Origin: Ricordea florida
Taxonomy: Eukaryota > Cnidaria > Anthozoa > Corallimorpharia > Ricordeidae
Reading direction: 5' to 3'
NCBI GenBank assembly: GCA_949710005.1
Contig: OX453273.1
Location: forward strand, 45,264,781-45,328,780
DNA: 64,000 bases
The first letter of the stretch is position 1, and every line of letters begins with the position of its first letter. This document shows, piece after piece, positions 6,206-37,175 of this stretch. Under the pieces are notes generated by a model. The model was not told where the DNA came from. It made no database searches and saw only the letters and a program-made list of their open reading frames with translations. Position numbers and translations under genes: made by a program.

Positions 6206-6223
6206 ATACTTACCTGACGCGGG
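6206..6223 (+). ncRNA. U1 snRNA 5' head, unit 1 (split)
   Basis: ATACTTACCTGACGCGGG is the first 18 nt of U1, with the 5'-splice-site-pairing ACTTACCTG. The U1 promoter lies upstream, so transcripts starting here would run into the inserted LINE. Its last 16 nt are duplicated at 12224 on the other side of the LINE. Confidence 0.9.
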
Positions 6224-6306
6224 TTCTTAGGGCGCGTGTGGTAAACGTTCTCACTAGTTTACTCTGGTGTGTGGCTCACTTGTGGGACCTCCTTTTGCTT
6301 AGAAGT

Positions 6307-6315
6307 GGTGAGTAT
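6307..6315 (+). promoter_or_regulatory. 5'-splice-site-like GGTGAGTAT in U1-A 5' UTR
   Basis: The site lies 101 nt from the U1 5' end and is complementary, with one mismatch, to ATACTTACC, the first nine bases of the U1 head that opens the same chimeric transcript. Equivalent sites occur in all four U1 LINE copies. Confidence 0.45.
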
Positions 6316-6331
6316 AATTGCGCCCTGATTT

Positions 6332-6395
6332 ACGGTGACCCTCCTGGGGACTCATGCTTGTAGGCCTTGTTCCTGCATAACCCAGGGTAAGCCGT
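6332..6395 (+). promoter_or_regulatory. Structured 5'-UTR RNA element of U1-A
   Basis: Nested pairings are visible: ACGG (6332) with CCGT (6392), CCTGGG (6343) with CCCAGG (6381), ATGC (6354) with GCAT (6375), and AGG (6362) with CCT (6372). The same fold is kept in U1-B with compensating base changes. Its function is unknown; it could be a translation or RNP-assembly signal. Confidence 0.6.
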
Positions 6396-6649
6396 TTTCC
6401 GTTTGGCCGTCTTGGTCCGGGGGCCTGGTTCCCAGGTCTCTCTCGGCCAACCGGCCAGCGATTGTTGTATACGGCGCGGCGTTTTCGCCGTTTCCTGCCG
6501 TTTTCCCGGCTTTTTGTCCCCTTTGCGATATTCTGCTGTTTTCTTTGCCTCTTTTGTTCCCCTGCTACGTCTGTTTGGACGTAGCAGCGTTTTCTCCATC
6601 GTTTGTACTCCTTATTTTAGCTATATTTTAGCTTTATTTTAGTTTTTAA

Positions 6650-6723
6650 CGGGCTGAGAACCCGATTTATATTTGTAGCGGGCAGAGAACCCGACTTTAT
6701 CTTAGTTACGGGCAAAGAACCCG
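6650..6723 (+). repeat. Three CGGGC-RAGAACCCG hairpin repeats before ORF1
   Basis: Three ~15-nt units (CGGGCTGAGAACCCG, CGGGCAGAGAACCCG, CGGGCAAAGAACCCG) start at 6650, 6679 and 6709, about 30 bp apart. Each can fold as a CGGG/CCCG hairpin. They lie in the last 130 bp before the ORF1 start. Confidence 0.7.
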
Positions 6724-6781
6724 TTTATTTCAAATTGTTGTATTGGAATAGGGAATTTTGGATTTGTGGTTTTTTGGAATC

Positions 6782-8134
6782 ATGTCCCTCCTCTATTCCA
6801 AAACTGTTACCCTCCAAACGAAAGGGAAATTGAGAGGTACCGCTCCGGCGGCAATTGTAGAGTCCGCACTGTCCACTTTTAAGGACTTTGTGGTCAAATC
6901 GGTGCAGTTTTGCCCCAATTCCGAGATTCTCATTACTTTTAATTCCTCCGATCAAAAGCAGGCAGTCCTGCAAAAGGAGGGAGCCCAGTTGTGCGGCCAA
7001 AGCTGCAAAATTGTGGGTGGAAAACCCCCGTCAACGGTTGTGCAGGTGCACCATTATCCGTTTGAGTTCCCGGATGCTCCCATCCGGGAGAAATTGAGTC
7101 AGTTTGGGGAGGTGCTTGGTATCAGGCACCAATCCTTTCCCGGTTTTCCCCAGGTCTCCACTGGATCTCGCCTTGTCCGAATGGTCGTGGACAGGGAGAT
7201 CCCGAAAGATCTCTTTATACAAGGCATCCAAACGACCGTTTGGTACAAGGGCCAGCCCCTAGTTTGCAATATTTGTAACGAACGGGGGCACAAAGCAGCT
7301 GTCTGTCCCTTGCGTGGCAAATGCCGCCGTTGTCGGCAGGCGGGTCATATTGCCCGGTTTTGCCATAATGCCCCGTGGGCTTCTCCTGACTCTGCCCCCC
7401 CTACTGTTGAGGCTACCCCGCCTGTCCAAAACGCTCCCCCGGAAATTGCTGATGACGTCCCTCCTCCCACCGCGGTCCCTGTGGACATTATCGCTTCTCC
7501 CGTGGATCCTGTAGACCCTCCTGCTTTAATGGAGATTTCTGTTGAGGCCCCCCCTGGTCTTTCTTTGTCTGAGACCCCAAGTTGGGGTGACTCTCTCCCT
7601 GCCCTGCCTGATGATGACTCCATGGAACTTTTTTCAGATCCTACCCCCACCGACGATGCTCCTTTTCCCCCGCTTTCTTCCCCTTCTGTAAGTACTGAAG
7701 TAAACAAAGAAGTAAGCAAAGAAAAAAGGACAAAACGTAACAAACGTAAAAGAGATAACAAAAAAGATATTACTGTAGATGCTTCTAAGAAGCAGCACTG
7801 TGATTCCGTTCTGTCTGTCCCTCTAAATTCTTCCCCCTCCCCCGAGTCCCCTATGGATTCCCTGGCTGCCGAGCCAGTTTCAGTGCCAGTGGCGACTGAC
7901 GCTCGCAGCCCCCCCTCTTCCCCCCCCTGTGCGTTTTCTGTCCCGGAGTTACCGCTTTCTCAGGCATCTAGTCGTCAATCTCGGCGACACTACGAACCTT
8001 TTTTGTCGGCCGAACGCTTACGGCGTGCGGCTTCGATTGATCGTCATCAGGCTGGGTCCTTGAAAAATTCTTCTTCTTCTAACCTCAGCCGCTCGCAGTC
8101 CGTTGGGAGTCTTGACTCCGTTTCTTCTATTTGA
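6782..8134 (+). CDS. LINE U1-A copy 1 ORF1, RNA-binding zinc-knuckle protein
   Basis: The predicted protein has 450 residues. I chose the ATG at 6782 (MSLLYSKTV) because copy 2 begins the same way and the upstream in-frame start is only TTG. Residues ~1-155 look like an RRM-type fold of the Tx1/L1 ORF1 family. Two CCHC knuckles follow, C162-C175 and C181-C194. The rest is Pro/Ser-rich, with a basic KRNKRKR patch and a C-terminal Arg/Ser-rich stretch. It should bind and package the element RNA with ORF2. It stops 62 nt before the ORF2 ATG. No disruption is seen. Confidence 0.85.
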   Translation: MSLLYSKTVTLQTKGKLRGTAPAAIVESALSTFKDFVVKSVQFCPNSEILITFNSSDQKQAVLQKEGAQLCGQSCKIVGGKPPSTVVQVHHYPFEFPDAPIREKLSQFGEVLGIRHQSFPGFPQVSTGSRLVRMVVDREIPKDLFIQGIQTTVWYKGQPLVCNICNERGHKAAVCPLRGKCRRCRQAGHIARFCHNAPWASPDSAPPTVEATPPVQNAPPEIADDVPPPTAVPVDIIASPVDPVDPPALMEISVEAPPGLSLSETPSWGDSLPALPDDDSMELFSDPTPTDDAPFPPLSSPSVSTEVNKEVSKEKRTKRNKRKRDNKKDITVDASKKQHCDSVLSVPLNSSPSPESPMDSLAAEPVSVPVATDARSPPSSPPCAFSVPELPLSQASSRQSRRHYEPFLSAERLRRAASIDRHQAGSLKNSSSSNLSRSQSVGSLDSVSSI

Positions 8135-8196
8135 ATTGTTTGTTTTCAATTCTTCCAAATTGTTTGTTGTTCAATTCTCTCTTCCCAAATTCCAAA

Positions 8197-11100
8197 ATGG
8201 CGCTCTCTATTATTACCTTAAATTGTAATGGACTGCGTGATCCAAACAAGCGGATGGGTCTACTCCAGTGGTTGTCTTGCTTAACCCTGGACATCATCTG
8301 TTTACAAGAGACTCACATGGTCTCTGCAAACGAAGCTCTTCCATGGTTTTCTTCCTTTGGGTATCAGGCTGTGGTCTCCTCGGGGACAAACCACTCGTGC
8401 GGAGTTGCTATTCTCTTTCGCAACTCTTTCTCTCTTCAATCTTCATGGGCTGATACAGATGGTCGCTTTGCTTTAGCCGAGCTCAGCACACACGGCAAAC
8501 TTTTTCGGGTTGCCTGTGCTTACGCACCAAACAGGAACCCCGCACGTAACGACTTCATCGAAAGTGTCGCCAACCAAATTGACCCTGCCATACCAACCAT
8601 TCTGCTGGGTGACTTTAACACCGTCCTCGATAGAACACTCGATAGGAGAGGCTCGGACTCCTCGGACACTTCCCGGGAGAGTTCACTTTTCCTTTCGCAG
8701 TGTTTTGATGACTGCTGCGTCATTGACATTTGGAGGGCCCTCCACCCTGCGTCCTCCTCCTTCACATGGTCCAAACCGGACAACTCTATCTCGTCCCGCA
8801 TCGACCTTATCGGTTGCCCTTATGCCTGGGTATCTGACGTGTCCTCTTGCGACATTCTTCCCTGCCCGTTCTCTGATCACTGCGGAGTCAAGCTTGGTTT
8901 CTCTATCCCTGATGCCATTCCCAGGGGGCCGGGCCGATGGAAACTCAACACTTCCATTCTGTCTGATGTGGCCTTTTCTGACGCAGTGTCATCTTTTTGG
9001 GTGGACTGGCGTTCAAAGCAGACCTCTTTCCCTTCCCTCCAGAAATGGTGGGACGCTGGCAAGCGCCACCTAAAGGCTCTTGCCATTCGTTTTTCTTGCT
9101 CTCGTTCCGCTAGCGACCACGCCTCCCGAGACCTGTTGTCTCGGCTGGCGACCCATCTCAAGTCAAAACTCGACCTAGGTTTTTGTTCTTTTACTGATGT
9201 GTACCACTCCGTTCTGGCCAAAATTGCCGACCTAGACCGTTCTGTAGCTGCCGGGGCTAAGACCCGTGCCCGAGTCCGTTGGGCAGAAGAAGGCGAATCA
9301 TCTTCGTCCTATTTTTTCCGTCTGGAGAAGAAACGAGGTACCGAGAACTGGATTTCCGCCATCCAAGCCCCTGATGGAAGCCTATCCTCAACCATCGATG
9401 GTATTTGTGGGTCATGGGCCTCCTTTTTCCGTGATCTTTTTACCGAGTCCCCAACTGACAAATCGTCGCAGGATGTTTTGCTCTCCAACCTGGATTCTCT
9501 GTCCCCAGATGAGTCCCGTTCCTGCGAAGGCGACATTACACCCGCTGAAGCCAAGTCTGCTCTTGAAGGCATGGCCCTGGGTAAAACTCCGGGCTGTGAT
9601 GGTCTACCGGCCGAATTTTACCTCCGCTTTTGGCATCTCCTGGGGGATGATTTAATCTTAGTACTGAATCACTCTCTCCGGGCTGGTACCCTTCCCTTAT
9701 CTCTCCGAACCGGTTTAATTTCCTTGCTGTTCAAAAAAGGCAATCGCCTCGAGCCCAAAAACTGGCGGCCAATAACACTTTTAAACGTGGACTATAAGAT
9801 CCTTTCACGTGTGTTGGCTGGCCGCCTCCTCAAGGTTATTCACAGTGTCGTCCGCCCCGAACAAACGTGCGGAGTTCCTGGACGCTTCATTGGAGAGAAT
9901 GTTGCCTTCCTCCGGGACGTGGTCACGTTCGCCACTGAAACCAACAGCCCTGTTGCTATTCTCTCCCTCGACCAGGAGAAAGCCTTCGACAGAGTTGACT
10001 GGGGGTTTCTTTTTGCCACTCTTACTCGTATGGGTTTTGGGCCTTCGTTTATTTCTTGGGTTAAGCTTTTATACACTAATATCCGCAGTTCTGTTTTAGT
10101 TAATGGTTACTCCTCTGAGTTCTTTTCTCTCTCTCGTGGCGTCAGACAGGGGTGTCCACTCTCCCCTCTCTTGTACGTCCTTCAAATTGAAGTTCTGGCC
10201 AGCGCCTTTCGTTCGTCGCCTGACATTTGCGGCCTCTCCCTGCCAGGCTCTTACTCGCCCCTACCCGTGGTGTCTCTTTACGCTGACGACACTTCAGCAA
10301 TTGTTACCTCTGATTCCTCCATCAAGGCTGTTTTTGACATCTATTCTTTATACGAAAAGGGATCGGGTTCCAAGCTTAACCCGAGTAAATGTGAGGGTCT
10401 ATGGTTGGGTGCCTGGAAAGGCCGCCTAGACTCTCCGGTCGCTATTAAGTGGACGTCTGACAAAATCAAAGTCCTCGGGGTCTTTCTCGGCAACGGGGAT
10501 GTGTCAGAAGCAAACTGGCGTCCCCGGGTCGACTCAGTCACCAAATGTCTGGCCTCATGGCGGTCTCGCCACTTGTCTTACAAGGGTAAAGCCCTTATCC
10601 TTAATGCTCTCGGCCTGTCTAGAGTGTGGTACGTGGCATCCCTTATCCATATGCCTCCCTGGGCCCTCTCCGAACTCAACTGCGTTGTTTTCAATTTCTT
10701 TTGGAGTGGCAAAAAGGATCTCGTAGCTAGGCGTGTTGTTATCCAACCTTGTAGTGCAGGCGGTTTTGGGGTGGCGTCTGTTCACCTGAAAATTTCGGCT
10801 CTCCTTACCCAGTGGGTGAGGAGATTCGCAGTTTCTCCCAACGCGTGGTCCTCTTTGATGAACTTTTGGTTTCTCAAGGCTTTTGGTGAACCAGCTCTCT
10901 CAGTGTTGGCTAACCCCCTCGTCTTTCCCCCAGGGAGATTGCCGCCGTTTTACTCCACCTTGTTAATGGCTTGGCGTTCCCTGGGCGGTGGTTCTTCTGG
11001 CGCCCTTCAACCCCTTGTTTTTGGCTTGGGTTCTGCTGGTGGCCCCAAGCCTGTTTCTTCTCTAACTTGCAAGGCCGCCTACTCCCTCCTGTTGGAGTCC

Positions 11101-11721
11101 AATCGGTCTACACCGCACTGTGTTGCTAAATTCCGTCCTGTCTTCGGCGATCTTTATTGGTCGACTACTTGGAACTCTCTGAGCTGCATGCCTTTGGATC
11201 GTTCCGTTGTGGACCTCTCCTGGCGTGTCGCTCATGGGGTTCTTTACACCGCTGCACGTTTAGCCTCTTTTGGCTACAACCATCCTCTGGCCTGTTACTG
11301 TGGTCATCCTTTGGAGACCACGGAGCACCTTTTTTACTCTTGCCCGTTAGCCCAGAGTGGAATCTCCTGGATCCAGTCCCTTCTTTTCTGTGCGGCTCCT
11401 CTGGCCCCCTCCATCGAGTTGCGCCACTTGCTCTTTGGTTTTTCTGAGGACGAGCTCAGGGTCGTCCCCATAGTTTTCGTTTATTTACTTCATGTTTGCA
11501 AATTCTTTATCTGGAGTCAGAGAAACGACTTTCGTTTCCGCTCTGTTCCTCCTGGTGCGGTTGGTCTCATCGCTGGGATGAAGGCACGCCTTCGGTTCTT
11601 CCTCCCTTTGTTATTCAAACGTTTTTCTTCTAATCGCCGTCGGCGTTGGTTCCACCGCCAGTGGGGAGCCAATGGGATCATAGGTATTGTGGTCGGGGGC
11701 ACCTTTGTCCTCAAAATCTAA
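8197..11721 (+). CDS. LINE U1-A copy 1 ORF2, APE endonuclease-reverse transcriptase
   Basis: The protein has 1174 residues from the ATG at 8197 (MALSIITLN), the start equivalent to that of other families. The N-terminal AP-like endonuclease shows LNCNGLRD, CLQETH (near 35-40), GDFNTVLD and a late SDH motif. The RT domain shows KNWRPITLLN, SLDQEKAFDRV, RGVRQGCPLSPLLYVL and YADDT at about 695-699. A CCHC-like cluster (CYCG...H...C) lies near the C-terminus. The endonuclease would nick the U1 gene and RT would prime on it. The ORF is intact. Its closest relative here is the copy at 31083. Confidence 0.92.
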   Translation: MALSIITLNCNGLRDPNKRMGLLQWLSCLTLDIICLQETHMVSANEALPWFSSFGYQAVVSSGTNHSCGVAILFRNSFSLQSSWADTDGRFALAELSTHGKLFRVACAYAPNRNPARNDFIESVANQIDPAIPTILLGDFNTVLDRTLDRRGSDSSDTSRESSLFLSQCFDDCCVIDIWRALHPASSSFTWSKPDNSISSRIDLIGCPYAWVSDVSSCDILPCPFSDHCGVKLGFSIPDAIPRGPGRWKLNTSILSDVAFSDAVSSFWVDWRSKQTSFPSLQKWWDAGKRHLKALAIRFSCSRSASDHASRDLLSRLATHLKSKLDLGFCSFTDVYHSVLAKIADLDRSVAAGAKTRARVRWAEEGESSSSYFFRLEKKRGTENWISAIQAPDGSLSSTIDGICGSWASFFRDLFTESPTDKSSQDVLLSNLDSLSPDESRSCEGDITPAEAKSALEGMALGKTPGCDGLPAEFYLRFWHLLGDDLILVLNHSLRAGTLPLSLRTGLISLLFKKGNRLEPKNWRPITLLNVDYKILSRVLAGRLLKVIHSVVRPEQTCGVPGRFIGENVAFLRDVVTFATETNSPVAILSLDQEKAFDRVDWGFLFATLTRMGFGPSFISWVKLLYTNIRSSVLVNGYSSEFFSLSRGVRQGCPLSPLLYVLQIEVLASAFRSSPDICGLSLPGSYSPLPVVSLYADDTSAIVTSDSSIKAVFDIYSLYEKGSGSKLNPSKCEGLWLGAWKGRLDSPVAIKWTSDKIKVLGVFLGNGDVSEANWRPRVDSVTKCLASWRSRHLSYKGKALILNALGLSRVWYVASLIHMPPWALSELNCVVFNFFWSGKKDLVARRVVIQPCSAGGFGVASVHLKISALLTQWVRRFAVSPNAWSSLMNFWFLKAFGEPALSVLANPLVFPPGRLPPFYSTLLMAWRSLGGGSSGALQPLVFGLGSAGGPKPVSSLTCKAAYSLLLESNRSTPHCVAKFRPVFGDLYWSTTWNSLSCMPLDRSVVDLSWRVAHGVLYTAARLASFGYNHPLACYCGHPLETTEHLFYSCPLAQSGISWIQSLLFCAAPLAPSIELRHLLFGFSEDELRVVPIVFVYLLHVCKFFIWSQRNDFRFRSVPPGAVGLIAGMKARLRFFLPLLFKRFSSNRRRRWFHRQWGANGIIGIVVGGTFVLKI

Positions 11722-12068
11722 ACGAAAAATGAAAATCAAATACAAAAGTTTATAAACATAAAATGTAGTTCAATTACAAAGTCGTCTTTGTTCGCTGTGT
11801 TAACTGCGCCCTCCTTGGCTAGCCTCCTAGTTCAACCTAGTCTCCCTAGGTGGGGCTGACGCCTTGTGAGGAGCGTAGTTTCTTTGTTTGTTTATTGAGT
11901 TTGTTGTCCCGTCTCATTGTTGTTCAGTTCTTTCCGCCAGAAGTTCTGGGGTCGTCGTATTTAGTATGTCTTGTTAGTTGTTCATTGTTGTACAGTTATT
12001 TCCGCCAGAAGTTCTGGGGTCGTCGTTTATGTCTTGTCCCGTTTTATGTTGTTTTCTTGTGTATGTGT

Positions 12069-12115
12069 GGGCCAGGTTCGATTCCTGGGTGACAGTTGAC
12101 GTGCTGGTGCACCCC
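12069..12115 (+). promoter_or_regulatory. 3'-UTR three-way junction with T-loop-like hairpin, U1-A copy 1
   Basis: GGG/CCC encloses two hairpins. The first is CCAGG-TTCGATT-CCTGG (12072-12088), with the 5-bp stem and 7-nt loop of a tRNA T-arm. The second is GTGC-TGGT-GCAC (12101-12112). U1-B keeps both loop lengths and the TGGT loop with different stem pairs. There are no other tRNA parts, so this is not a tRNA gene. Confidence 0.6.
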
Positions 12116-12165
12116 CGTGTTTGAGTGATGTTGCCCACTGTCATGTGGGTTAACATGAGTCGGTA

Positions 12166-12206
12166 GACCGGCGGGCATTGCACTCCTTAACAGGGCCCGG
12201 CCGATC
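12166..12206 (+). promoter_or_regulatory. Terminal hairpin with U1A-type loop, U1-A copy 1
   Basis: A GC-rich stem (GACCGGCGGGC with GCCCGGCCGATC, one mismatch and one bulge) presents the loop ATTGCACTCC at 12177-12186. It lies just before the A tail. AUUGCACUCC is the U1A-protein-binding loop of U1 stem-loop II. A role in RT recognition, U1A binding or both is inferred. Confidence 0.65.
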
Positions 12207-12217
12207 ACTTAAATACA

Positions 12218-12223
<6 letters not shown>

Positions 12224-12250
<27 letters not shown>

Positions 12251-12299
12251 TCAAGGAGGCAGTCCTCTCAAGGCGAGGCCCTTTCATTGCACTTCGATT

Positions 12300-12342
<43 letters not shown>

Positions 12343-12390
12343 TATAATTTCTGGTAGTGGGGTCCTGCGTTCGCGCTAGACCCCGACTTA
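12224..12390 (+). ncRNA. U1 snRNA, main part, unit 1 (5' dinucleotide displaced)
   Basis: ACTTACCTGACGCGGGAGG onward matches U1: stem-loop II with loop CATTGCACTTC (12285-12295), the ACCCCAAATGTGGG stem-loop III, the Sm-like TAATTTCTGG, and a terminal stem-loop ending near CCCCGAC. It begins directly after the LINE A tail, so the U1 promoter is now 6 kb upstream. Confidence 0.92.
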
Positions 12391-20294: not shown

Positions 20295-20312
20295 ATACTT
20301 ACCTGACGCGGG
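20295..20312 (+). ncRNA. U1 snRNA 5' head, unit 2 (split)
   Basis: This is the identical 18-nt U1 start, cut at the same base as in units 1 and 3 and followed by LINE U1-B. The last 16 nt recur at 26307. Confidence 0.9.
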
Positions 20313-20410
20313 ACTACGTCTGCGCATCAGGTTTGTTCCACGGACTTTGGTCTGGTCTTGTGTGGGAACCTTGTGGTGCCTTCAATTTCTAAAGATCAAC
20401 GCATAGAGGT

Positions 20411-20419
20411 GGTGAGTAT
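20411..20419 (+). promoter_or_regulatory. 5'-splice-site-like GGTGAGTAT in U1-B copy 1
   Basis: The site lies 116 nt from the U1 5' end. It is the counterpart of the site at 6307, although the surrounding 5' UTR sequence differs. Confidence 0.4.
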
Positions 20420-20459
20420 TGTGTATATTAATTTTTGTATATATTTGCTTAAATTAAGT

Positions 20460-20523
20460 GCGGTGACCCTCCGGGGGAGGAATGCTTGTTGGGCTTTGCC
20501 CAGCATAACTCCGGGTAAGCCGC
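20460..20523 (+). promoter_or_regulatory. Structured 5'-UTR RNA element of U1-B copy 1
   Basis: The fold is the same as at 6332: GCGG/CCGC, CCGGGG/CTCCGG, ATGC/GCAT and GGGC/GCCC. Three helices differ from U1-A in both partners, keeping pairing. The GGTAAG word beside the outer helix is unchanged. Confidence 0.6.
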
Positions 20524-20712
20524 TTGTTCCGCTGACCGTTTGGTCCGTGGCCTGGTTCCAGGTTGCGGCCGGGCGGTCTGCGGGGCGTTTTTTCCCGGCC
20601 GGGGTTTTTTTTCGCCGGCTCCTTGTACATATTCATATTAGCTAGTTTCGTAGTTTTTTCCTTTTTCTAGTTTAAGTTTAACTTTAGTGTGTTTCCATTG
20701 GATTCTCCTGCC

Positions 20713-22296
20713 ATGGTTTGGGAGAATTCTTATGGTCGCACAATTATCCTGCGCTGCGGCGCAAAATTAAAAGATAAGGGGCGGGAAGAAATTATTCCCG
20801 CCGTATATGAATTGTTTAAGGCTTTCCTTGTGGAGTCTATACAATTGTTACCCCTCGGGGATATCGGTGTCACCTTTACCCATGTTGATGAGAAGAAGAC
20901 CGCTGAGCGTGACACCGGGGCCCACCTCCTTGGTATGTGGGGCCCTATTGTGGGGGCGGGACCTCGTCCTACTTTGGTCCAGGTCCATTATTACCCCTAT
21001 GAGGCCTCCAATGATATTCTTGAGGGGGCTCTCTCTGCTTTTGGCTTCGTGATGTCTGTGTCCCATCAGCATTACGTAGCCTATCCCGACATCTGTACTG
21101 GGTCTCGGGTTGTAAAAATGGTCCTCGACAAGGAAATCGGCCGGGACCTTATTGTGCATGGCCACCAGGTTAAGATCTGGTACAGGGGTCAGCCTCTTCA
21201 GTGCGGCATTTGCCGTGAGAAGGGGCATAAGGGCTCCTCGTGCCCCTTAAAGGGTTTATGTCTTAGGTGTCATAATCCGGGGCACACAGCGAAATCATGC
21301 AAAAACGCTTGGGGAACGGTTGTTGCCCCTCTTCAGGAGGAGGTTGCTCCTCTTCCGGAGGAGATTGCTCCTCCACCAGTGGAGGTGGGGTCTCCCGTTT
21401 CCCCGAACATGCCGGCCCTGGCCAATTCTGAGGACCTACCCGAAGTTGAGATGGAGGAAGAGGTTGGTCCTTTGCCGGAGCCTGAGTCACCGGCTCCTAC
21501 TGTCTTTCCGGAGGTCTCCGTCGGCTACTCTCCGGAGTTCTATACCCCCGAGTTGTTTGAGGTCGTTCCAGACGTCTCCCCACCTGTTCCTTTTGACACC
21601 GGTGCCGCGTCTGGTCCTTCTCCTGCTACCGCCCCATCTGTGACGGACGCTTCTATTGCTGCCTCCGCTTCCGTGGCTGCTTCGGCCCAACATTTTTTGT
21701 CCATCGACGATCCGCCTCCGGAGGCTGCGCGTACGCGTAAAGCTAATAGTGCCCCTTCCAATGAAGGGGCTAGTATTCCCCCCAAAACAAATGGGGCTAA
21801 TAGCAATAAGAGTGGTTCCAGAAAGAAGGGGCCTAAAGTTAGTTCTGCCCCAGAGAAGGCAACTAACGCAAGTAGTAAAGTTGTTCAAAGTAATGTTGAT
21901 AAAAGTATAGTAGATAAAAGTAAGTCTTCCCCCGAAAAAGAGGGGGCTAAAAGTTTAGACCAAGAGAAAGGGGGGCAAGCGCCCAAACCCAGCAAGTCTC
22001 TTGATTCAAGTGGGAGTTCTCCGGCAGTTGCCGAGACTCCAGTCTCCCAAAATTCTAGCCAGAGTCAGAGTGTCCTTCCAAAAACCTCTTCTTTTGTAGC
22101 TGCGCCTCGCAGGTCGAGGCAGCTTGAACGGACCACCTCTGGGAGGAGGCTACGGGTTAGCCCCTCCATTGCTTCGCTTCGAGGCCGGTCCCGCGAGCGT
22201 TCTCGCTCACACTCGGATACCCCTCGGGATCTTTGTATGTCGTCGGACTCTCGTTCCCCTAGTTCTGGGGGCGGTAGTCCTTCTAGGGCACACTAA
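20713..22296 (+). CDS. LINE U1-B copy 1 ORF1, zinc-knuckle protein with RS-like tail
   Basis: The protein has 527 residues from the ATG at 20713 (MVWENSYGRT), matching copy 2. An RRM-like core occupies ~1-160. Two CCHC knuckles lie at C164-C177 and C183-C196. A long acidic Pro-rich and then Ser/Lys-rich region ends in an Arg-Ser cluster containing RGRSRERSRSHS. RS tails are typical of splicing factors and may direct the protein to nuclear RNA sites; this is inference. It ends 14 nt before ORF2. No lesion is seen. Confidence 0.85.
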   Translation: MVWENSYGRTIILRCGAKLKDKGREEIIPAVYELFKAFLVESIQLLPLGDIGVTFTHVDEKKTAERDTGAHLLGMWGPIVGAGPRPTLVQVHYYPYEASNDILEGALSAFGFVMSVSHQHYVAYPDICTGSRVVKMVLDKEIGRDLIVHGHQVKIWYRGQPLQCGICREKGHKGSSCPLKGLCLRCHNPGHTAKSCKNAWGTVVAPLQEEVAPLPEEIAPPPVEVGSPVSPNMPALANSEDLPEVEMEEEVGPLPEPESPAPTVFPEVSVGYSPEFYTPELFEVVPDVSPPVPFDTGAASGPSPATAPSVTDASIAASASVAASAQHFLSIDDPPPEAARTRKANSAPSNEGASIPPKTNGANSNKSGSRKKGPKVSSAPEKATNASSKVVQSNVDKSIVDKSKSSPEKEGAKSLDQEKGGQAPKPSKSLDSSGSSPAVAETPVSQNSSQSQSVLPKTSSFVAAPRRSRQLERTTSGRRLRVSPSIASLRGRSRERSRSHSDTPRDLCMSSDSRSPSSGGGSPSRAH

Positions 22297-22310
22297 GTTC
22301 GTCATTTGAG

Positions 22311-25300
22311 ATGGCTGGAATTCACCATCTTTTCCTCATGGCCATCTCTATCGCCACGCTCAATGTAAACGGGCTGAGGGACCCGAACAAACGTTTGGGT
22401 ACCCTCCAGTGGCTGAGCAATCTGAATGCTCAAATTGTTTGCTTGCAGGAGGTGCACATTGTCCTCCTGCATGAGTGTCGGGCTTGGTTTGCCCCCTTTG
22501 GTTTCGAGGCGGTTGCTTCCTTTGGGACCCAAAAAGCAAGAGGTGTCGTTGTTTTGTACCGCTCTTCTGTCTCTCTCGTCCATCACTGGGTTGACGAGGA
22601 TGGTCGCCTCGCCTTGTGTGAGTTTAAAGCGGCCAATCAAACTTTTCGTGTGGCGTCAGTGTACGCCCCGAATCGTAACCCAGAGAGAGACAGTTTTCTG
22701 CACTCTGTCTCCGACTCGATTGACCCCAGTGTTCCAACGTTCCTCTGTGGAGATTTTAATACAGTCTTTGACCGTTCCTCAGACAGGCGTGGTTCGTCCC
22801 CTGTCGAGTCCCACAGAGAGAGCTCAGCCACGCTTCAGGGTCTGTTTCAGTCCTGTTGTGTGGTTGATATTTGGAGGTCTTTGCATCCGCGAGACAGAGC
22901 CTTTACTTGGACCAAGTCAGATGGGTTGAGGGCTTCCCGTATTGACATCATTGGGTGCCCCTACTCCTGGCTTGGTTCCGTTCAGTCTTGTACCATAGCC
23001 CCTTGTCCTTTTTCGGACCACGATGCCGTTGTTTTTTCGGGAAATATTCCGGAGGCACCGGCTCGTGGCCCTGGGCGTTGGAAACTCAATTCTAGTATTT
23101 TATCTGACTCTGGCTTTATTACTGATTTGCATAGTTTCTGGCATACCTGGCGTCTAAAACAAAATTCTTTTAGTTCCATCCAAAAATGGTGGGACGTTGG
23201 TAAGAGGGAAATCAAAAAGTTGGCCATACATCACTGTCAACTCAGGGCGTCTCTTCGCAGGGCCAATCGTGACCTGCTAGAGCGCCTTGCCGTCCACTTG
23301 AAATCGCAGGTCGATGCGGGGCGGACTTCTTGTCTTGAGCCCTATCACAACGTCTTGGCGTCTCTTGGTCATTTTGATCTTGAGGTTGCCAAAGGGGCTC
23401 AGGTCCGCTCCCGTATTCAGTGGACGGAAGAAGGCGAATCCTCCTCTGCTTTTTTCTTTCGGTTGGAGAAGCGTCGGGCCATTGACAACACCATTGTCGC
23501 TGTAACATCCCGGGACGACGTTCTCCTTACCGACCCTCTTGCCATCCGTCAAGAGTGGGCTTCCTTTTTCAACGAGCTTTTTACTGCTGAGGTGCTGGAT
23601 ATGCCCACTCAAGACTCTTTACTGGATGGACTTGGCGCCAGGCTGCCAGCTGATGCCTCTCTTTCCTGTGAGGGCCCCATTACCCTCCAGGAATGCTATC
23701 TGGCTCTGCAGGGTACGGCTAGGAACAAGGCTCCGGGCCTTGATGGCCTCCCTGCAGAGTTCTATCTTACTTTTTGGGACTTGCTGGGTCCGGATTTAGT
23801 CCGTGTTTTAAATTGTTCGTTTGTTCAGGGCAGGTTACCCCTCTCCATGCGGAGTGGGGTTATTTCTTTGCTGTTCAAAAAGGGTGACAGGCTGGACTGT
23901 CGGAATTGGAGGCCGATAACTTTGTTAAATTCTGATTATAAGCTATGTTCTCGGGTCTTGGCCGGCCGCCTACTGAAGGTCCTGCATCACGTCATCGGCA
24001 GGGACCAGACGTGTGGCGTGCCGGGTCGTTATATTGGTGAGAATGTAGCTTTGCTACGTGACGCCGTTGCGTTTGCCGGCGAACGCAATATACCAATGGC
24101 CATCTTATCGCTGGATCAAGAAAAGGCCTTTGACCGCATAAGTTGGTCTTTCCTGCAGAGGACCCTTGATCGTATGGGTTTCGGGCCTTCGTTCGCCCAT
24201 TGGGTTTCTCTGCTGTATTCTGGTGTCCGTAGCACGGTCTCCATTAATGGGTTCCTGTCCCCTTTTTTCTGTCCTTCTCGGGGAGTGAGGCAGGGCTGTC
24301 CCTTGTCTCCTCTCCTCTATGTTCTTTCTATTGAGGTTTTGGCCGCGAACCTCCGAGCTCATCCTGATCTTGGGGGCCTGTCGTTGCCGGGCATTGCCCG
24401 TCCGTTGTCGTGTCTTTCGCTGTACGCGGATGACACTTCCACCATCGTGACTTCGGACAGGGCTATCCTGGCCACCTTTGATGTCTATCACCGTTTTGAG
24501 GTTGGTTCAGGTTCCAAGCTAAACCTCGGGAAGTGCGAGGGCCTCTGGCTTGGCGCCTGGCACGACAGGTCGGACGAACCTGTCCCCATCAATTGGACAA
24601 ATACCAAGATTAAAGCTCTGGGCGTGTTCCTTGGGGCTGGGGATTTAGAACAGGCCAATTGGTCGCCCCGCCTTGAGGCCGCCCAAAAATGTCTATCTGC
24701 TTGGAAAGGCAGAGCTCTGACCTACGGGGGCAGAGCCCTTGTGGCGAACGCCCTTGCCACCTCCCGGCTTTGGTACATGGCTTCGGTCATCCCAATGCCA
24801 GCGTGGGTTATCTCTGCCATAAATTCTCTTGTTTTCAATTTCTTTTGGAAGGGGAAAAAGGACCTGGTAGCTAGAAGAGTCGTCGTCCAGCCCTGCAATC
24901 GCGGTGGTTTTGGACTCGTCTGCGTCTCTTCGAAACTCCAGGCCCTTCACGTTCAGTGGGTAAAACGCTTTGTGTCTTCCCCCAATGCTTGGGCTTCTTT
25001 CCTGTCATATTGGTGTTCTTTTCGTTTCGGGGCTTCTCCCCTGGCTGTTTTGCGTGACCCTGGTGCCTTTACTTTGTCGCTTCTTCCGCCTTTTTACCGG
25101 TCTGTTCTTGAGGCTTGGAGGGAGTTAGGGGGTCACTTTTCCCCCTCTTTGGATTGTCTCGCCGTTGGCCCTCTTGCTGACGGTTCTGAGACTTCCGTTG
25201 ACTCCCTCTCATGCAAAGCTGCATACAATTGGTTGCTAGACGCTCGTGCGGGTTCCCCGCATTGTGTCTCCAAGTTTAGGCCTATCTATGGCCCCCTGTA

Positions 25301-25865
25301 CTGGGAATCCACCTGGGCGGAGTTGTTTTACTTCCCGCTGGATCGCCCGGCCATCGACCTTGCTTGGAAGATCGCTCACGGTGTCTTGTACACTGCTGAG
25401 CGTCTGCAATCTTTTGGTTACGACTTTTCAACAACGTGCTTTTGTGGCTTTCACATGGAGTCTCTTGAACACCTTTTCTTTCAGTGCCCACTGGCTCAGA
25501 GCGGCTGGGGCTGGCTCCAGTCGCTTCTGATAACGGCTTCTCCGTTGGCCCCTTCCTTGGAACCTAGGCACGTTCTCTTTGGGTTCTCCAAGGACGAACT
25601 TGCGGCCGTGCCTAGGGTTTTTGTTTATCTCGTCAATCTGGTCAAATACTTCATTTGGGCTCAGAGAAACGATTATCGCTTCCGTGCTGTCCCCCCTGGT
25701 GCGGTTGGCCTTATTGCTGCTGTTAAGGCCAGAGCGGCTTTCCATCTTCCGCTCTTCTTTCGCCGTTTCCGGTCCCCACGTCGCCAACTCTATTTTGTGC
25801 GGCAGTGGGGTGCCCGTGGTACCATTGGAACTATCCAAAACGGTGTTTTTGTGGTGTCTCTCTGA
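22311..25865 (+). CDS. LINE U1-B copy 1 ORF2, APE endonuclease-reverse transcriptase
   Basis: The protein has 1184 residues from the ATG at 22311; an in-frame ATG at 22338 (MAISIATLN) is equivalent to the U1-A start and may be used instead. The endonuclease shows LNVNGLRD, CLQEVH, CGDFNTVFD and FSDHDAVV. The RT shows RNWRPITLLN, SLDQEKAFDR, RGVRQGCPLSPLLYVL and YADDT near residue 705. The C-terminal cluster is CFCG...H...C. It is an intact enzyme for target-primed insertion into U1. It differs widely from U1-A ORF2 at the DNA level yet shares its target. Confidence 0.92.
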   Translation: MAGIHHLFLMAISIATLNVNGLRDPNKRLGTLQWLSNLNAQIVCLQEVHIVLLHECRAWFAPFGFEAVASFGTQKARGVVVLYRSSVSLVHHWVDEDGRLALCEFKAANQTFRVASVYAPNRNPERDSFLHSVSDSIDPSVPTFLCGDFNTVFDRSSDRRGSSPVESHRESSATLQGLFQSCCVVDIWRSLHPRDRAFTWTKSDGLRASRIDIIGCPYSWLGSVQSCTIAPCPFSDHDAVVFSGNIPEAPARGPGRWKLNSSILSDSGFITDLHSFWHTWRLKQNSFSSIQKWWDVGKREIKKLAIHHCQLRASLRRANRDLLERLAVHLKSQVDAGRTSCLEPYHNVLASLGHFDLEVAKGAQVRSRIQWTEEGESSSAFFFRLEKRRAIDNTIVAVTSRDDVLLTDPLAIRQEWASFFNELFTAEVLDMPTQDSLLDGLGARLPADASLSCEGPITLQECYLALQGTARNKAPGLDGLPAEFYLTFWDLLGPDLVRVLNCSFVQGRLPLSMRSGVISLLFKKGDRLDCRNWRPITLLNSDYKLCSRVLAGRLLKVLHHVIGRDQTCGVPGRYIGENVALLRDAVAFAGERNIPMAILSLDQEKAFDRISWSFLQRTLDRMGFGPSFAHWVSLLYSGVRSTVSINGFLSPFFCPSRGVRQGCPLSPLLYVLSIEVLAANLRAHPDLGGLSLPGIARPLSCLSLYADDTSTIVTSDRAILATFDVYHRFEVGSGSKLNLGKCEGLWLGAWHDRSDEPVPINWTNTKIKALGVFLGAGDLEQANWSPRLEAAQKCLSAWKGRALTYGGRALVANALATSRLWYMASVIPMPAWVISAINSLVFNFFWKGKKDLVARRVVVQPCNRGGFGLVCVSSKLQALHVQWVKRFVSSPNAWASFLSYWCSFRFGASPLAVLRDPGAFTLSLLPPFYRSVLEAWRELGGHFSPSLDCLAVGPLADGSETSVDSLSCKAAYNWLLDARAGSPHCVSKFRPIYGPLYWESTWAELFYFPLDRPAIDLAWKIAHGVLYTAERLQSFGYDFSTTCFCGFHMESLEHLFFQCPLAQSGWGWLQSLLITASPLAPSLEPRHVLFGFSKDELAAVPRVFVYLVNLVKYFIWAQRNDYRFRAVPPGAVGLIAAVKARAAFHLPLFFRRFRSPRRQLYFVRQWGARGTIGTIQNGVFVVSL

Positions 25866-26144
25866 GCCCATTTGTTTTTCTCTTTAATCTCCCTGATATG
25901 TTTCTACATTTTCTTGTTTTTGTCTGTTTGACGTGGCGTTTTGGTGCTCCTGGTCTCCTTTATTGGTTGTACTGGGGTTCCTTTGCCGGTTTCGTTGTTT
26001 CCGTTTTTTGGTGTTTTGTCGGATCTTCTGGTCTCCTTGACTGGTTGTACTGGAGTTCCCTTTTGGTTTGTGTTTATGTCTGTGTTTGTCCACCGTTACA
26101 TTGTAGCGGTTTGTACTTTGCCATTGCATTCGGCATTGTACTAT

Positions 26145-26198
26145 GTGGAGGTGGGGTTCAATTCCCCATCGAGTTTGGAGCAGTGGTCTGCCCTCCAC
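26145..26198 (+). promoter_or_regulatory. 3'-UTR three-way junction, U1-B copy 1
   Basis: GTGGAGG/CCTCCAC (7 bp) closes two hairpins: TGGGG-TTCAATT-CCCCA (26152-26168) and GCAG-TGGT-CTGC (26180-26191). The design is that of U1-A at 12069, with changed stem pairs and the same TGGT loop. Confidence 0.62.
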
Positions 26199-26246
26199 GG
26201 CAACGTCTTTGGGCTTGCACTCCCCGCCCTTAGATGGTTTTAATGT

Positions 26247-26284
26247 CCGGCAAGCATTGCACTTCCCTCTGGGAGCTTGTCCGG
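26247..26284 (+). promoter_or_regulatory. Terminal hairpin with U1A-type loop, U1-B copy 1
   Basis: CCGG/CCGG and AAGC/GCTT pair around ATTGCACTTCCC. The 11-mer CATTGCACTTC (26255-26265) is identical to stem-loop II of the U1 genes in this array (12285-12295). It lies ~6 bp before the A tail. Confidence 0.65.
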
Positions 26285-26300
26285 CGCCGCAAAAAAAAAA

Positions 26301-26306
<6 letters not shown>

Positions 26307-26333
<27 letters not shown>

Positions 26334-26382
26334 TCAAGGAGGCAGTCCTCTCAAGGCGAGGCCCTTTCATTGCACTTCGATT

Positions 26383-26425
<43 letters not shown>

Positions 26426-26473
26426 TATAATTTCTGGTAGTGGGGTCCTGCGTTCGCGCTAGACCCCGACTTA
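26307..26473 (+). ncRNA. U1 snRNA, main part, unit 2
   Basis: The sequence is nearly identical to 12224-12390, with stem-loops II and III, the Sm-like TAATTTCTGG and the 3' stem-loop present. It follows the U1-B poly(A) directly and is cut from its promoter. Confidence 0.92.
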
Positions 26474-29102: not shown

Positions 29103-29120
29103 ATACTTACCTGACGCGGG
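29103..29120 (+). ncRNA. U1 snRNA 5' head, unit 3 (split)
   Basis: This is the same 18-nt head, followed by U1-A copy 2. The 16-nt duplication recurs at 35117 and again at 41194 because two LINEs are stacked. Confidence 0.9.
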
Positions 29121-29203
29121 TTCTTAGGGCGCGTGTGGTAAACGTTCTCACTAGTTTACTCTGGTGTGTGGCTCACTTGTGGGACCTCCTTTTGCTTAGA
29201 AGT

Positions 29204-29292
29204 GGTGAGTATAATTGCGCCCTGATTTACGGTGACCCTCCTGGGGACTCATGCTTGTAGGCCTTGTTCCTGCATAACCCAGGGTAAGCCGT
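29204..29292 (+). promoter_or_regulatory. 5'-splice-like site and structured element, U1-A copy 2
   Basis: GGTGAGTAT lies at 29204-29212, 101 nt from the U1 start. The nested fold ACGG/CCGT with CCTGGG/CCCAGG spans 29229-29292. Both match 6307 and 6332. Confidence 0.55.
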
Positions 29293-29544
29293 TTTCCGTT
29301 TGGCCGTCTTGGTCCGTGGGCCTGGTTCCCAGGTCTCTCTCGGCCAACCGGCCAGCGATTGTTGTTTACGGCGCGGCGTTTTCGCCGTTTCCTGCCGTTT
29401 TCCCGGCTTTTTGTCCCCTTTGGGATATTCTGCTTGTTGCTTTACTCTTTTGTTCCCCTGTTACGTCTGTTTGGGCGTATCAGCGTTATTACACTATTTG
29501 TAATTATTATAATTTAGCGGTTTGAAAACCCCTTTTATTGTTAG

Positions 29545-29614
29545 CGGGCAAGAACCCGAGTTATTTTTAGCGGGCAAAGAACCCGATTACTATTAGTAAC
29601 GGGCAAAGAACCCG
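29545..29614 (+). repeat. CGGGC-AAGAACCCG repeats, U1-A copy 2
   Basis: Three units start at 29545, 29571 and 29600. The hairpin arms CGGG/CCCG are kept while the spacers between units differ from copy 1. Confidence 0.65.
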
Positions 29615-29679
29615 ATAGCTTAATAGTTTAATATTGTAGTATTGGAATTGGGACTTCTGGATTCGTGGTTTTCGGAATC

Positions 29680-31017
29680 ATGTCCCTTCTCTTTACCAAA
29701 ACTGTCACCCTTCAAACGAAGGGACAACTAAAAGGTACTGCCCCGGCAGCAATTGTTGAGTCGGCCTTGTCGTCGTTTAAGGATTTTTCTATTAAGTCCG
29801 TCCAGTTTAGGCCTAATTCAGAGATTATGGTCACCTTTGCGTCTTCTGAGCAGAAGCAGGCCGTCTTGCAAAAAGAGGGGGCCCAGCTCTGCGGCCACAG
29901 TTGCAAGATCGTTGGTGGAAAACCCCCTTCCACAGTGGTTCAGGTTCACCACTACCCCTTCGAATTCCCTGATGCCCCCATCAGGGACAAGTTAAGTCAA
30001 TATGGGGAGGTTATAAACATCCGCCATCAAGTCTACCCAGGTTTCCCTGAGGTTCACACCGGGTCTCGTCTTGTCAGAATGGTTGTCAAGAAGGAGATCC
30101 CCAAAGAAGTCATGATCTCGGGCTCCATTGTTTCGGTATGGTACAAGGGGCAACCTTTAGTGTGTAACATTTGTAATGTTAAAGGCCACAAGGCAGCTGT
30201 TTGCCCCCTGCGTGGCAAATGCCGAAGATGTCATCAACCTGGCCATATTGCCCGTTTTTGTGTTAACGCCCCGTGGGCCTCCGTCACTGAGAACTCCACC
30301 CCCGTTGAGTCTGCCGGTGACGCCAGCAGCGGTGACGCTCCTCCACCCTCTGCAGATGTTGAAGTCCCTCCCCCCTCGTCTGATGTTCTTAACGAGGAGC
30401 CCCCTCCTCTGATGGAAGTTTCTGTTGACCCCCCCCCTGGTCTCTCCACTGCTGCATCATCAGCTTGGGCTGACTCCCTCCCCCCTCTCCCTCCGGAGAA
30501 CTCTATGGATCTGTTTTCAGATCCCAGCCCACCTGAGGACCCCTCCTTCCCCCCTCTCCCTTCCCAGTCGGTGGACTCTAATAGTCTTGAAGTTGAAAAC
30601 ATTAAAGACCAACGCAAAAAACGTAATAAAAGAAAGAGAGACCACAAAAAAGAAATTGTTGTAGATGCTTCTAAGAAGCCACATTGTGATTCTGGTCAAT
30701 CAGAACCTTCTTGCTCGTTTCCCTCCCCCGAGTCCCCTATGGATTCCCAGGCTGTCGAGCCAGCTTCAGTGCCAGTGGCGACTGACGCTCGCAGCCCCCC
30801 CTCTTCTTCCCCTTCTGAGGTTTCTGTTCATACGATGTCTCCTCCTCAGGCATCTAGTCACCAATCTAGGCGACAATACGAACCGTTTCTGTCGGCCGAG
30901 CGCTTACGACGTGCGGCCTCGTCTGATCGCAGTCCGGCTGGGTCCTCGCGGAACTCTTCCTCTAACCTAAGCCGTTCCCAGTCCGTTGGGAGTCTTGACT
31001 CCGTCTCTTCCAATTGA
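29680..31017 (+). CDS. LINE U1-A copy 2 ORF1, zinc-knuckle protein
   Basis: The protein has 445 residues from the ATG at 29680 (MSLLFTKTV). It has the same order as the 6782 protein: RRM-like core, two CCHC knuckles (CNIC...C and CRRC...C), Pro/Ser-rich region, basic KRNKRKR patch and a Ser-rich end. Many differences from copy 1 in the linker are indels in multiples of three, so the frame is conserved. It ends 65 nt before ORF2. It should supply RNA binding even though its own ORF2 is broken. Confidence 0.85.
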   Translation: MSLLFTKTVTLQTKGQLKGTAPAAIVESALSSFKDFSIKSVQFRPNSEIMVTFASSEQKQAVLQKEGAQLCGHSCKIVGGKPPSTVVQVHHYPFEFPDAPIRDKLSQYGEVINIRHQVYPGFPEVHTGSRLVRMVVKKEIPKEVMISGSIVSVWYKGQPLVCNICNVKGHKAAVCPLRGKCRRCHQPGHIARFCVNAPWASVTENSTPVESAGDASSGDAPPPSADVEVPPPSSDVLNEEPPPLMEVSVDPPPGLSTAASSAWADSLPPLPPENSMDLFSDPSPPEDPSFPPLPSQSVDSNSLEVENIKDQRKKRNKRKRDHKKEIVVDASKKPHCDSGQSEPSCSFPSPESPMDSQAVEPASVPVATDARSPPSSSPSEVSVHTMSPPQASSHQSRRQYEPFLSAERLRRAASSDRSPAGSSRNSSSNLSRSQSVGSLDSVSSN

Positions 31018-31082
31018 ATTGTTTCTGTTGATTACTCCAAATTGTTATTTTGTTGTTGTTTTACATCCTTCCAAATTTCAAA

Positions 31083-34000: not shown

Positions 34001-34607
34001 GCACTGTGTCGCTAAATTCCGTCCTGTCTTCGGCGATCTTTATTGGTCGACTACTTGGAACTCCCTGAGCTGCATGCCTTTGGATCGTTCCGTTGTGGAC
34101 CTCTCCTGGCGTGTCGCTCACGGGGTTCTTTATACCGCTGCCCGTTTAGCCTCCTTTGGCTACAACCATCCTCTGGCCTGCTACTGTGGTCATCCTTTGG
34201 AGACCACGGAGCACCTTTTTTACTCTTGCCCGTTAGCTTAGAGTGGCATCTCCTGGATCCAGTCCCTTCTTTTCTGTGCGGCTCCTCTGGCCCCCTCTAT
34301 TGAGCTACGCCATTTGCTGTTTGGTTTTTCTGAGGACGATCTTAGGGTGGTCCCCATTGTTTTTGTTTATTTGCTTAACGTTTGCAAACTCCTTATTTGG
34401 AGTCAGAGGAACGATTTTCGTTTCCGTTCTGTCCCTCCTGGTGCGGTTGGACTCATTGCTGGGATGAAGGCACGTCTTCGGTTCTTCCTCCCCCTGTTCT
34501 TCAAACGCTTTTCTTCAAACCGCCGTCGACGTTGGTTCCACCGTCAGTGGGGAGCCAACGGGATCATTGGTATTGTTGTCGGAGGCACTTTTGTCCTCAA
34601 AATTTAA
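31083..34607 (+). pseudogene. LINE U1-A copy 2 ORF2 with in-frame TAG
   Basis: The frame starts at the ATG at 31083 (MALSILTLN) and carries the endonuclease (CLQETH, GDFNTVLN, FSDHCGV), RT (SLDQEKAFDRV, RGVRQGCPLSPLLYVL, YADDT near residue 695) and CCHC-like cluster. At 34239-34241 a TAG replaces the CAG of copy 1, removing the last ~122 residues; the same frame then stays open to the TAA at 34605-34607. The cut falls after both catalytic domains, so partial activity is conceivable. The loss of the conserved C-terminus makes an inactive copy more likely. Confidence 0.88.
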
Positions 34608-34962
34608 ACAAAAAATGAAAATGAAAATCAAATACAAAAGTTTATAAACATAAAATGTAGTTATATTCCAAAGTTGTCTTTGTTTGCTGTGTTAACTGCG
34701 CCCTCCTTGGCTAGCCTCCTAGTTCAACCTAGTCTCCCTAGGTGGGGCTAACGCCTTGTGAGGAGCGTAGTTTCTTTTGTTTGTTTCTTGTGATTGTTGT
34801 CCCGTCTCATTGTTGTTCAGTTCTTTCCGCCAGAAGTTCTGGGGTCGTCGTATTTAGTACGTCTTTGTTAGTTGTTCTTTGTCGTACCGTTATCTCCGCC
34901 AGAAGTTCTGGGGTCGTCGTTCATGTCTTGTCCCGTTTTATGTTGTTTTCTTGTGTATGTGT

Positions 34963-35009
34963 GGGCCAGGTTCGATTCCTGGGTGACAGTTGACGTGCTG
35001 GTGCACCCC
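34963..35009 (+). promoter_or_regulatory. 3'-UTR three-way junction, U1-A copy 2
   Basis: CCAGG-TTCGATT-CCTGG (34966-34982) and GTGC-TGGT-GCAC (34995-35006) are closed by GGG/CCC. It is identical in design to 12069-12115. Confidence 0.6.
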
Positions 35010-35059
35010 CGTGTTTGAGTGATGTTGCCCACTGTCATGTGGGTTAACATGAGTCGGTA

Positions 35060-35100: not shown

Positions 35101-35116
35101 ACTTAAATATAAAAAA

Positions 35117-37161: not shown

Positions 37162-37175
37162 GCCCGTCACTTGAG

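Follow-up and report, generated by a model that had tools for sequence, protein, structure and literature searches.

Why should LINEs that interrupt U1 snRNA genes end in a hairpin carrying the loop by which U1 itself is recognised by the U1A protein? The question was raised by a sequence-only reading of the window, by which we mean the whole 64-kb stretch of DNA analysed here. It is an open question how LINE reverse transcriptases (RTs) choose their own RNA, as is the route by which site-specific LINEs reach their target genes, and the candidate signal at this locus is the recognition loop of a host protein, a very well-measured RNA-protein contact that is hence readily testable. U1A recognises the AUUGCAC loop with high specificity, and its reading extends from the loop to one or two of the base pairs that close it (PMC13187837).

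The window is a stretch of a U1/U2/5S gene array and holds three U1, three U2 and three reversed 5S genes (Rfam). Four LINEs encoding an AP-type endonuclease, an RT and a zf-RVT domain lie inside its U1 genes, two of family A and two of family B (Table 1). At the 5' junctions of A1, B1 and A2 the first 18 nt of U1 are followed by the element, and B2 starts at the 3' target copy of A2. At the 3' junction the A tail is followed by CTTACCTGACGCGGG and the remaining U1, or by the next LINE. Our genome-wide searches covered the window's own 538-Mb genome, and all element evidence comes from one genome. A search for the junction AAAAACTTACCTGACGCGGG, with the hairpin forming no part of the query, returned 23 sites, and the reversed control returned none on either strand. 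These sites comprised two tails of a short element (SINE) described below and 21 LINE tails (9 A, 10 B and 2 from a third U1 LINE family, C, which was found outside the window). With 21 LINE tails on the same U1 site, a single insertion position in a multicopy gene, and with an RT and endonuclease ORF, the elements are site-specific non-LTR retrotransposons. We considered the 21 U1 5' ends in the array (C2:45194466-45660089) that have no preceding A tail, three in the window and 18 fetched; a LINE interrupts 14 of them, and the other seven continue as U1 over the 75 nt read. The U1 genes of the array thus bear a heavy LINE load. Numerous further LINE copies sit at unrelated genomic sites, so targeting is not absolute. 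The LINE protein has two named relatives, one each from Stylophora pistillata and Paramuricea clavata, which makes an anthozoan host probable; one relative bears the name 'Transposon TX1 uncharacterized 149 kDa protein'.

Table 1. Positions in the window of the U1 LINEs, their junctions and terminal hairpins, the neighbouring U1 genes and the U2 LINEs
Feature	Position	Strand	Remarks
U1 LINE A1, body and A tail, in U1 gene	6224..12224	+	ORF1 ~6782-8134 with zinc knuckle; ORF2 8131-11721 with endonuclease, RT, zf-RVT
U1 LINE B1	20313..26307	+	ORF1 20689-22296; ORF2 22311-25865
U1 LINE A2	29121..35117	+	ORF1 29665-31017; ORF2 31050-34241
U1 LINE B2, immediately 3' of A2 on the same target copy	35133..41194	+	ORF1 35557-37161; ORF2 37176-40730
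A1 5' junction, U1 first 18 nt ATACTTACCTGACGCGGG	6206..6223	+	last 15 nt repeated past the A tail at 12225-12239
B1 5' junction, U1 5' end	20295..20312	+	15-nt repeat 26308-26322
A2 5' junction, U1 5' end	29103..29120	+	15-nt repeat 35118-35132 (also the B2 5' junction); again 41195-41209
5'-splice-site-like GGTGAGTAT	A1 5' UTR 6307-6315; A2 29204-29212; B1 20411-20419; B2 35230-35238 as GGTAAGTAT	+	
A1 3'-terminal hairpin CCGGCGGGC[AUUGCACUCCUUAACAGG]GCCCGGCCG	12168..12203	+	loop motif 12177; sequence and fold
A2 3'-terminal hairpin, same as A1	35062..35097	+	loop motif 35071
B1 3'-terminal hairpin CCGGCAAGC[AUUGCACU]UCCC-UCU-GGGA-GCUUG-U-CCGG	26247..26284	+	loop motif 26256; sequence and fold
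B2 3'-terminal hairpin, same as B1	41134..41171	+	loop motif 41143
U1 snRNA gene, 3' of A1	12222..12385	+	Rfam; loop ATTGCACTTC at 12286
U1 snRNA gene, 3' of B1	26305..26468	+	Rfam; loop at 26369
U1 snRNA gene, 3' of B2	41192..41355	+	Rfam; loop at 41256
X, Z elements	14735-19880; 2235-5789; about 28400-28685		

The array also carries U2 LINEs, X and Z, which end in its U2 genes with the A tail joined to (GT)ATCTGTTCTTATC; over the aligned part their ORF2 is 35-39% identical to that of A. Their tails had been said to lack the loop, and the 3' UTRs of both indeed do not share it. Elsewhere in the window, 41899-58105 is bounded by a pair of 575-nt inverted arms that are 97% complementary and separated by 15 kb, between which the ORFs include an endonuclease VII domain and a weak, below-cut-off match to a major capsid protein N-terminus; this is perhaps a large virus-like DNA element. 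At 13-1500 there is a 495-aa ORF with a weak tyrosine-recombinase match below the Pfam cut-off.

How exceptional is the loop within the window? ATTGCACT occurs 10 times, always on the + strand, against an expectation of 1.88, and none of 100 shuffles reached 10 (largest, 6). Three sites fall in the three U1 genes and three in the three U2 genes (5911, 20000 and 28808), at what we take to be stem-loop II and stem-loop IV, respectively. The other four are the LINE 3' hairpins, all just 5' of the A tail, with the motif followed by CC in A1 and A2 and by T in B1 and B2. The sequence-only reading had placed such a hairpin just before the A tail of all four U1 LINEs, and we recovered it in each; the span given for the first, 12166-12206, encloses the hairpin as we place it. 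The 11-mer identity claimed between family B and U1 stem-loop II was likewise confirmed, CATTGCACTTC being found at 26255 and 12285.

Folds were predicted for one copy per family, and in both a C:G pair stands directly under AUUGCAC (A, -17.7 kcal/mol; B, -16.6 kcal/mol). In the B1 fold AUUGCACU is unpaired and bulges out, with the lower stem on one side and a small UCCC/GGGA helix on the other. In the A fold the UUG of the motif is weakly paired with CAG inside the loop, and in the B copies L047 and L119 the upper predicted helix takes in the final C of AUUGCAC. The predictions thus leave AUUGCAC unpaired in B1, C, a second C hairpin and SINE hairpins 2-4, and pair part of it in A and two B copies. 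A CCU/AGG mini-helix drawn by eye in the A loop was dropped, as it differs from the predicted minimum-energy fold.

We then looked at the loop across the genome. Within 75 nt of the junction CATTGCAC was exact in 19 of the 21 LINE tails and had one mismatch in L043 and L051; in the LINE tails it starts 39-50 nt upstream of the junction AAAAACTTACC. It was exact in one of the two SINE tails at the junction and had one mismatch in the other. Among aligned tails it was intact in 25/30 A rows (30 of 33 matches), 15/19 B rows and 14/18 C rows, a 19th C row being gapped there; the B and C alignments each hold 19 of 21 matches, the two omitted in each matching only the part before the hairpin. In a three-way alignment the A, B and C tails are identical at 67/142, 74/131 and 74/121 positions (47-61%), and their longest unbroken invariant run is CATTGCACT. 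Every 8-mer that recurs in the 3' UTRs of A, B and C alike derives from GCATTGCACT; there are three, against a mean of 0.2 and a maximum of 3 in 500 shuffles. Within A, the loop columns are 0.979 conserved against 0.919 for all columns, among copies too young to separate the loop from its surroundings.

The stems tell the families apart. Beneath the C and AUUGCAC they read GGGC/GCCC in A, AAGC/GCUU in B, AGGC/GCCU in the B copies L119-L121 and GGUC/GGCC in C. The full C stem is ACGGGGGUC/GGCCCUCGU, with a predicted 11-nt loop, AUUGCACUUCA. A further hairpin, AAAAGC[AUUGCACUAUC]GCUUUU, is predicted in the C copy L041; this second C hairpin has an unfolded centroid, and its motif is intact in 8 of the 13 rows with letters there, 6 of 19 rows being fully or partly gapped. 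The terminal loop is 11 nt in both C hairpins and 10 nt in SINE hairpin 2, those of A and B lying outside 10-11 nt, and loop positions 8-10 are variable (UCC, UUC, UAU). The claim that the stems differ while the loop is kept extends to family C, to the B subfamily with its compensated stem and to the SINE. A lost loop on a kept stem, the outcome named beforehand as speaking against it, was not seen as the state of any family, and loop mutations were confined to single copies.

Counted as contiguous pairs including the closing C:G, the stem reaches 5 pairs in A, 7 in B, 9 in C, 7 in the second C hairpin and 10 in SINE hairpin 2, so that a C:G closing pair on a stem of 5-10 pairs is common to these five; the count is 3, 3 and 4 for the other three SINE motifs and 3 for U1 itself. 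Among 25 other genomic CATTGCACTNC sites that served as a control, two reached 5 contiguous pairs under C:G and none reached 7. These were drawn from 30 listed of 1425 genomic matches, some of them copies of one repeat, after five had been set aside (C copies L018 and L020 and SINE copy L025 by position, SINE copies L021 and L024 by likeness). The stems of L021 and L024 had only 1 and 4 pairs in this test, and with both kept 2/27 sites reached 5 pairs. Possible counter-examples were counted neither way: an A-type element at C2:45198983 (L148) ends in an assembly gap, another at C2:45647171 (L149) loses its A likeness before the 3' end, and L145 has an A-like tail with TTTGCAC. The U1 LINE families are related (ORF2 55-60% identical), and we therefore read retention of the loop as conservation rather than repeated invention. 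Matches to the pattern CATTGCAC-N(20-50)-AAAAAACTTACC numbered 1 in viral_contigs and 24 in genome_contigs, the only eukaryote genome covered by our comparisons being that of the window; none of the 25 was seen to continue as a U1 gene, and we take them as chance matches.

The LINEs carry further short elements at both ends. Those A, B and C heads that could be read far enough have GGTRAGTA ~100-117 nt past the U1 start (TTGTGAGTAT in L040, L050 and L171; GACGTAAGTAT in L190), and in the window GGTGAGTAT is complementary, with one G-U, to the U1 5' end ATACTTACC that heads the same element. This element resembles a 5' splice site, and its role may be to recruit U1 snRNP or to close a 5' domain. 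In their 3' UTRs all three families contain hairpins that resemble a tRNA T-arm and have a B-box-like sequence (window 12072-12088 and 26152-26168; about 1365-1385 of L041). They read CCAGG-TTCGATT-CCTGG, TGGGG-TTCAATT-CCCCA and, as the C consensus, CGGGG-TTCGATT-CCCCG, with the stem changed and the loop kept as in the end hairpin. AATTTCTGG, which occupies the place of the Sm site in the local U1 genes, occurs five times in the window, at three sites within U1 genes and two within the 5' UTR of B2 (35201, 35239), and twice more in the 3' UTR of L041. It was absent from the A UTRs, the B1 and B2 3' UTRs, the B1 5' UTR and the C copy L049 that were scanned, and an Sm-like site as a feature of all U1 LINEs was dropped on that account.

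Many copies of ACTTACCTGACGCGG outside the array lead to a short dispersed SINE headed by the U1 5' end. Our search gave 509 first-look candidates; the 40 that were scored gave 42 matches, 34 of which were aligned together with L031. The 35 copies form a short dispersed, putatively non-coding element with an snRNA-derived head. Copies at unrelated places start with the U1 5' end, some missing a few bases. The U1 5' end likewise heads a B element at C12:14959483 (L189, to which we assign the tail L117, 5 kb on), though neither flank read is a U1 gene. Such heads on copies at unrelated places fit a template RNA that would start at the U1 transcription start.

The SINE has four CATTGCAC motifs, intact in 28/35, 30/34, 21/27 and 18/35 rows with letters, the third being shortened by deletion in 8/35 copies. 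Hairpin 2 is predicted to form 10 pairs around a 10-nt loop, GGUAGGGUCC[AUUGCACUCC]GGGCUCUACU. Its closing pair is C:G in 28/34 rows, and one stem pair shows a compensatory change, A-U in 25/34 and U-A in 2/34 (L031, L191), with the intermediates A-A in 5 and U-U in 2; the 34 rows come from a pattern requiring part of the stem, and these pair counts therefore lean to pairing. In the predicted folds motif 1 is partly paired, while motifs 3 and 4, which belong to a nested stem immediately 5' of the tail, are both unpaired. By eye, the SINE end GGUCAUUGCACU...GACCC...CGCCUCAAACACAAA resembles the LINE C end GGUCAUUGCACUUCAGGCCC...CCGCCUCAAAAACAAA. LINE tails are also found in SINE heads, at A/CTTACC, A/CTTGCC or A/CATACC (A in L055, L067 and L077; B in L119-L121; C in L126), and SINE tails occur likewise in SINE heads at the U1-like site (L031, L053, L191). 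LINE and SINE share a target, and the simplest reading is that they share one machinery.

A search of the genome with human U1A RRM1 gave only two matches, on contig 12 at 28067972-28068166 and 28068697-28068876, which we read as two exons of one putative SNF-type gene. The two pieces joined match both U1A and Drosophila SNF over 79 residues. The gene has IYINNLNE, RGQAFVVF and VALKTLKMRG as in Drosophila SNF, and since it does not have the VSRSLKMRG of U1A, a single dual-purpose SNF is likely. Changing the closing U:G of Drosophila U2 stem-loop IV to C:G makes SNF bind threefold tighter (PMC5992148). The element loops retain AUUGCAC and the closing C:G, and vary at loop positions 8-10 and in their stems.

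Taking these observations together, the three U1 LINE families and the target-sharing SINE probably borrow the host U1A/SNF protein for copying themselves. In the reading we prefer, to which we give a probability of about 0.52, the hairpin is a conserved 3'-terminal SNF-binding element, shared by LINE and SINE, that selects RNA for reverse transcription. Binding of the hairpin by SNF seems to us quite likely, and we see an even chance that the selected function is to mark the 3' end as a template signal for the RT; confidence in both was slightly lowered because the folding predictions pair part of AUUGCAC in A and in two copies of B. A LINE at U1 position 18 would be transcribed from the U1 promoter, giving an RNA that begins with the first 18 nt of U1. 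Its A tail is encoded in the DNA in A, B and C, and AATAAA was absent from the 3' UTRs scanned in these families (two each). Host SNF on the hairpin would keep this U1-type transcript from ordinary polyadenylation and form a U1-like RNP, whose SNF-marked 3' end the LINE RT complex would accept as a template; target-primed reverse transcription would follow at A/CTTACC. Acceptance of SNF-marked ends by the LINE complex would also explain why the SINE kept the same loop. That the loop is common to LINE and SINE argues, without proving it, for a role in copying over one in LINE expression alone, and that it matches the site of a host protein argues in the same way for SNF over the RT alone.

The latter choice separates our reading from one in which the LINE's own RT or ORF1p reads the AUUGCAC hairpin directly, SNF being uninvolved and the likeness to U1 stem-loop II incidental or historical. 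RTs of other LINEs recognise 3' stem-loops, and ORF1p here is of an RNA-binding type with zinc knuckles. Moreover, a partner LINE is the usual source of the 3' parts of SINEs (PMC7245038). Direct reading nevertheless leaves unexplained why the loop should be the host U1A site down to its C:G closing pair, why the SINE has extra motifs away from its 3' end and why loop positions 8-10 vary, and a sequence-level search found no U1A-like RRM in ORF1; we regard it as rather unlikely. Less probable still is that SNF binds and the benefit is confined to the fate of the RNA, with poly(A) polymerase blocked, as it is by the autoregulatory polyadenylation inhibition element (PIE) of U1A, and the transcript processed and transported like U1, the RT making no use of the protein. 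Such a role would suit the missing AATAAA, a signal which X and the Z copy at 2235-5789 do have (36 and 32 nt from where the scanned stretch ends), and it would suit the B fold, where AUUGCACU forms a bulge between two helices much as in the PIE. PIE-bound U1A inhibits polyadenylation, but two U1A molecules are bound there (PMC9977717), against one terminal site in A and B, and the loop is also kept in a SINE living at scattered sites.

Two further explanations do without the RNA-protein contact, and we hold both to be very improbable. ATTGCAC might act as DNA, serving as a site for a nuclease or transposition complex of the element. An independent U1-targeting transposon, zebrafish Dada-U1, offers a parallel, since its sub-terminal repeats GTGCAAT/ATTGCAC carry the same heptamer and match U1 at the same distance (PMC3706591). 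In the elements, however, the motif, which was sought on the 3' side, starts 44-55 nt upstream of CTTACC, and in U1 60 nt downstream (12225, 12285); it also lies inside RNA hairpins with compensatory stem changes, and on these two grounds we give DNA-level mimicry little weight, noteworthy as the coincidence is. Alternatively, the loop could be without function, either a fragment of U1 acquired through template switching or a chance likeness. Both B and C have CATTGCACTTC in common with the local U1, yet inspection by eye showed no U1 likeness past the loop, A reads ...TCC against ...TTC in the local U1, and the loop persists in families that around it are now only about half identical, and several times over in the SINE.

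Beyond the preferred SNF-binding element, we put forward only tentatively, and with some doubt, that LINE and SINE RNAs pass as U1 snRNPs, host SNF acting as a co-receptor that would choose the RNA for the RT and bring it to the U1 gene array. The features that suggest it are the U1 5' start, the 5'-splice-site-like element of the LINEs that is able to pair with the U1 5' end, the Sm-like sites of some B and C copies and the end hairpin. If SNF does mark the 3' end, a LINE would rely on a core spliceosomal protein for recognition of its own 3' end; a retrotransposon would have taken over that protein, and its SINE partner would have built a small U1-like RNA round the same contact. LINEs targeting U2, Dada and SINEs with snRNA heads are already in the literature. 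In the open-access papers searched, which leave out most subscription titles, we found no report of a U1-gene-specific LINE, of the U1A loop in a LINE or SINE, or of AUUGCAC in connection with a retrotransposon.

Compared with U1 stem-loop II, the elements share the C:G closing pair followed by AUUGCAC, and SINE hairpin 2 sets the 10-nt loop AUUGCACUCC on a 10-pair stem. They differ in that the hairpins belong to LINE and SINE RNAs with stems unlike that of U1, that the A loop is larger and that the B motif is a bulge below a small helix. The PIE likewise places AUUGCAC in a 3' UTR, and in B the site similarly lies between two helices. It differs in binding two U1A molecules (PMC9977717), whereas the terminal hairpins of A, B and C have one site each. 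Like the U1 LINEs, Keno and Utopia insert site-specifically into a multicopy snRNA gene, in their case that of U2. Keno belongs to the Tx1 clade. An AP-type endonuclease, as in the U1 LINEs, characterises that clade (PMC4640811). What sets the U1 LINEs apart from Keno and Utopia is the U1 gene as target, position 18 within it and the 3' hairpin with the U1A loop; the endonuclease of Utopia, moreover, is restriction-like. SINEs with snRNA-derived heads were reportedly described by Kojima in 2015. Our SINE shares with them the snRNA start, but takes only the first ~18 nt of U1 and adds four CATTGCAC motifs and a tail that by eye is like that of LINE C. Finally, Dada-U1 has in common with these elements the U1-gene target and ATTGCAC near the ends, but Dada-U1 elements are DNA transposons, in which the motif stands as a sub-terminal inverted repeat.
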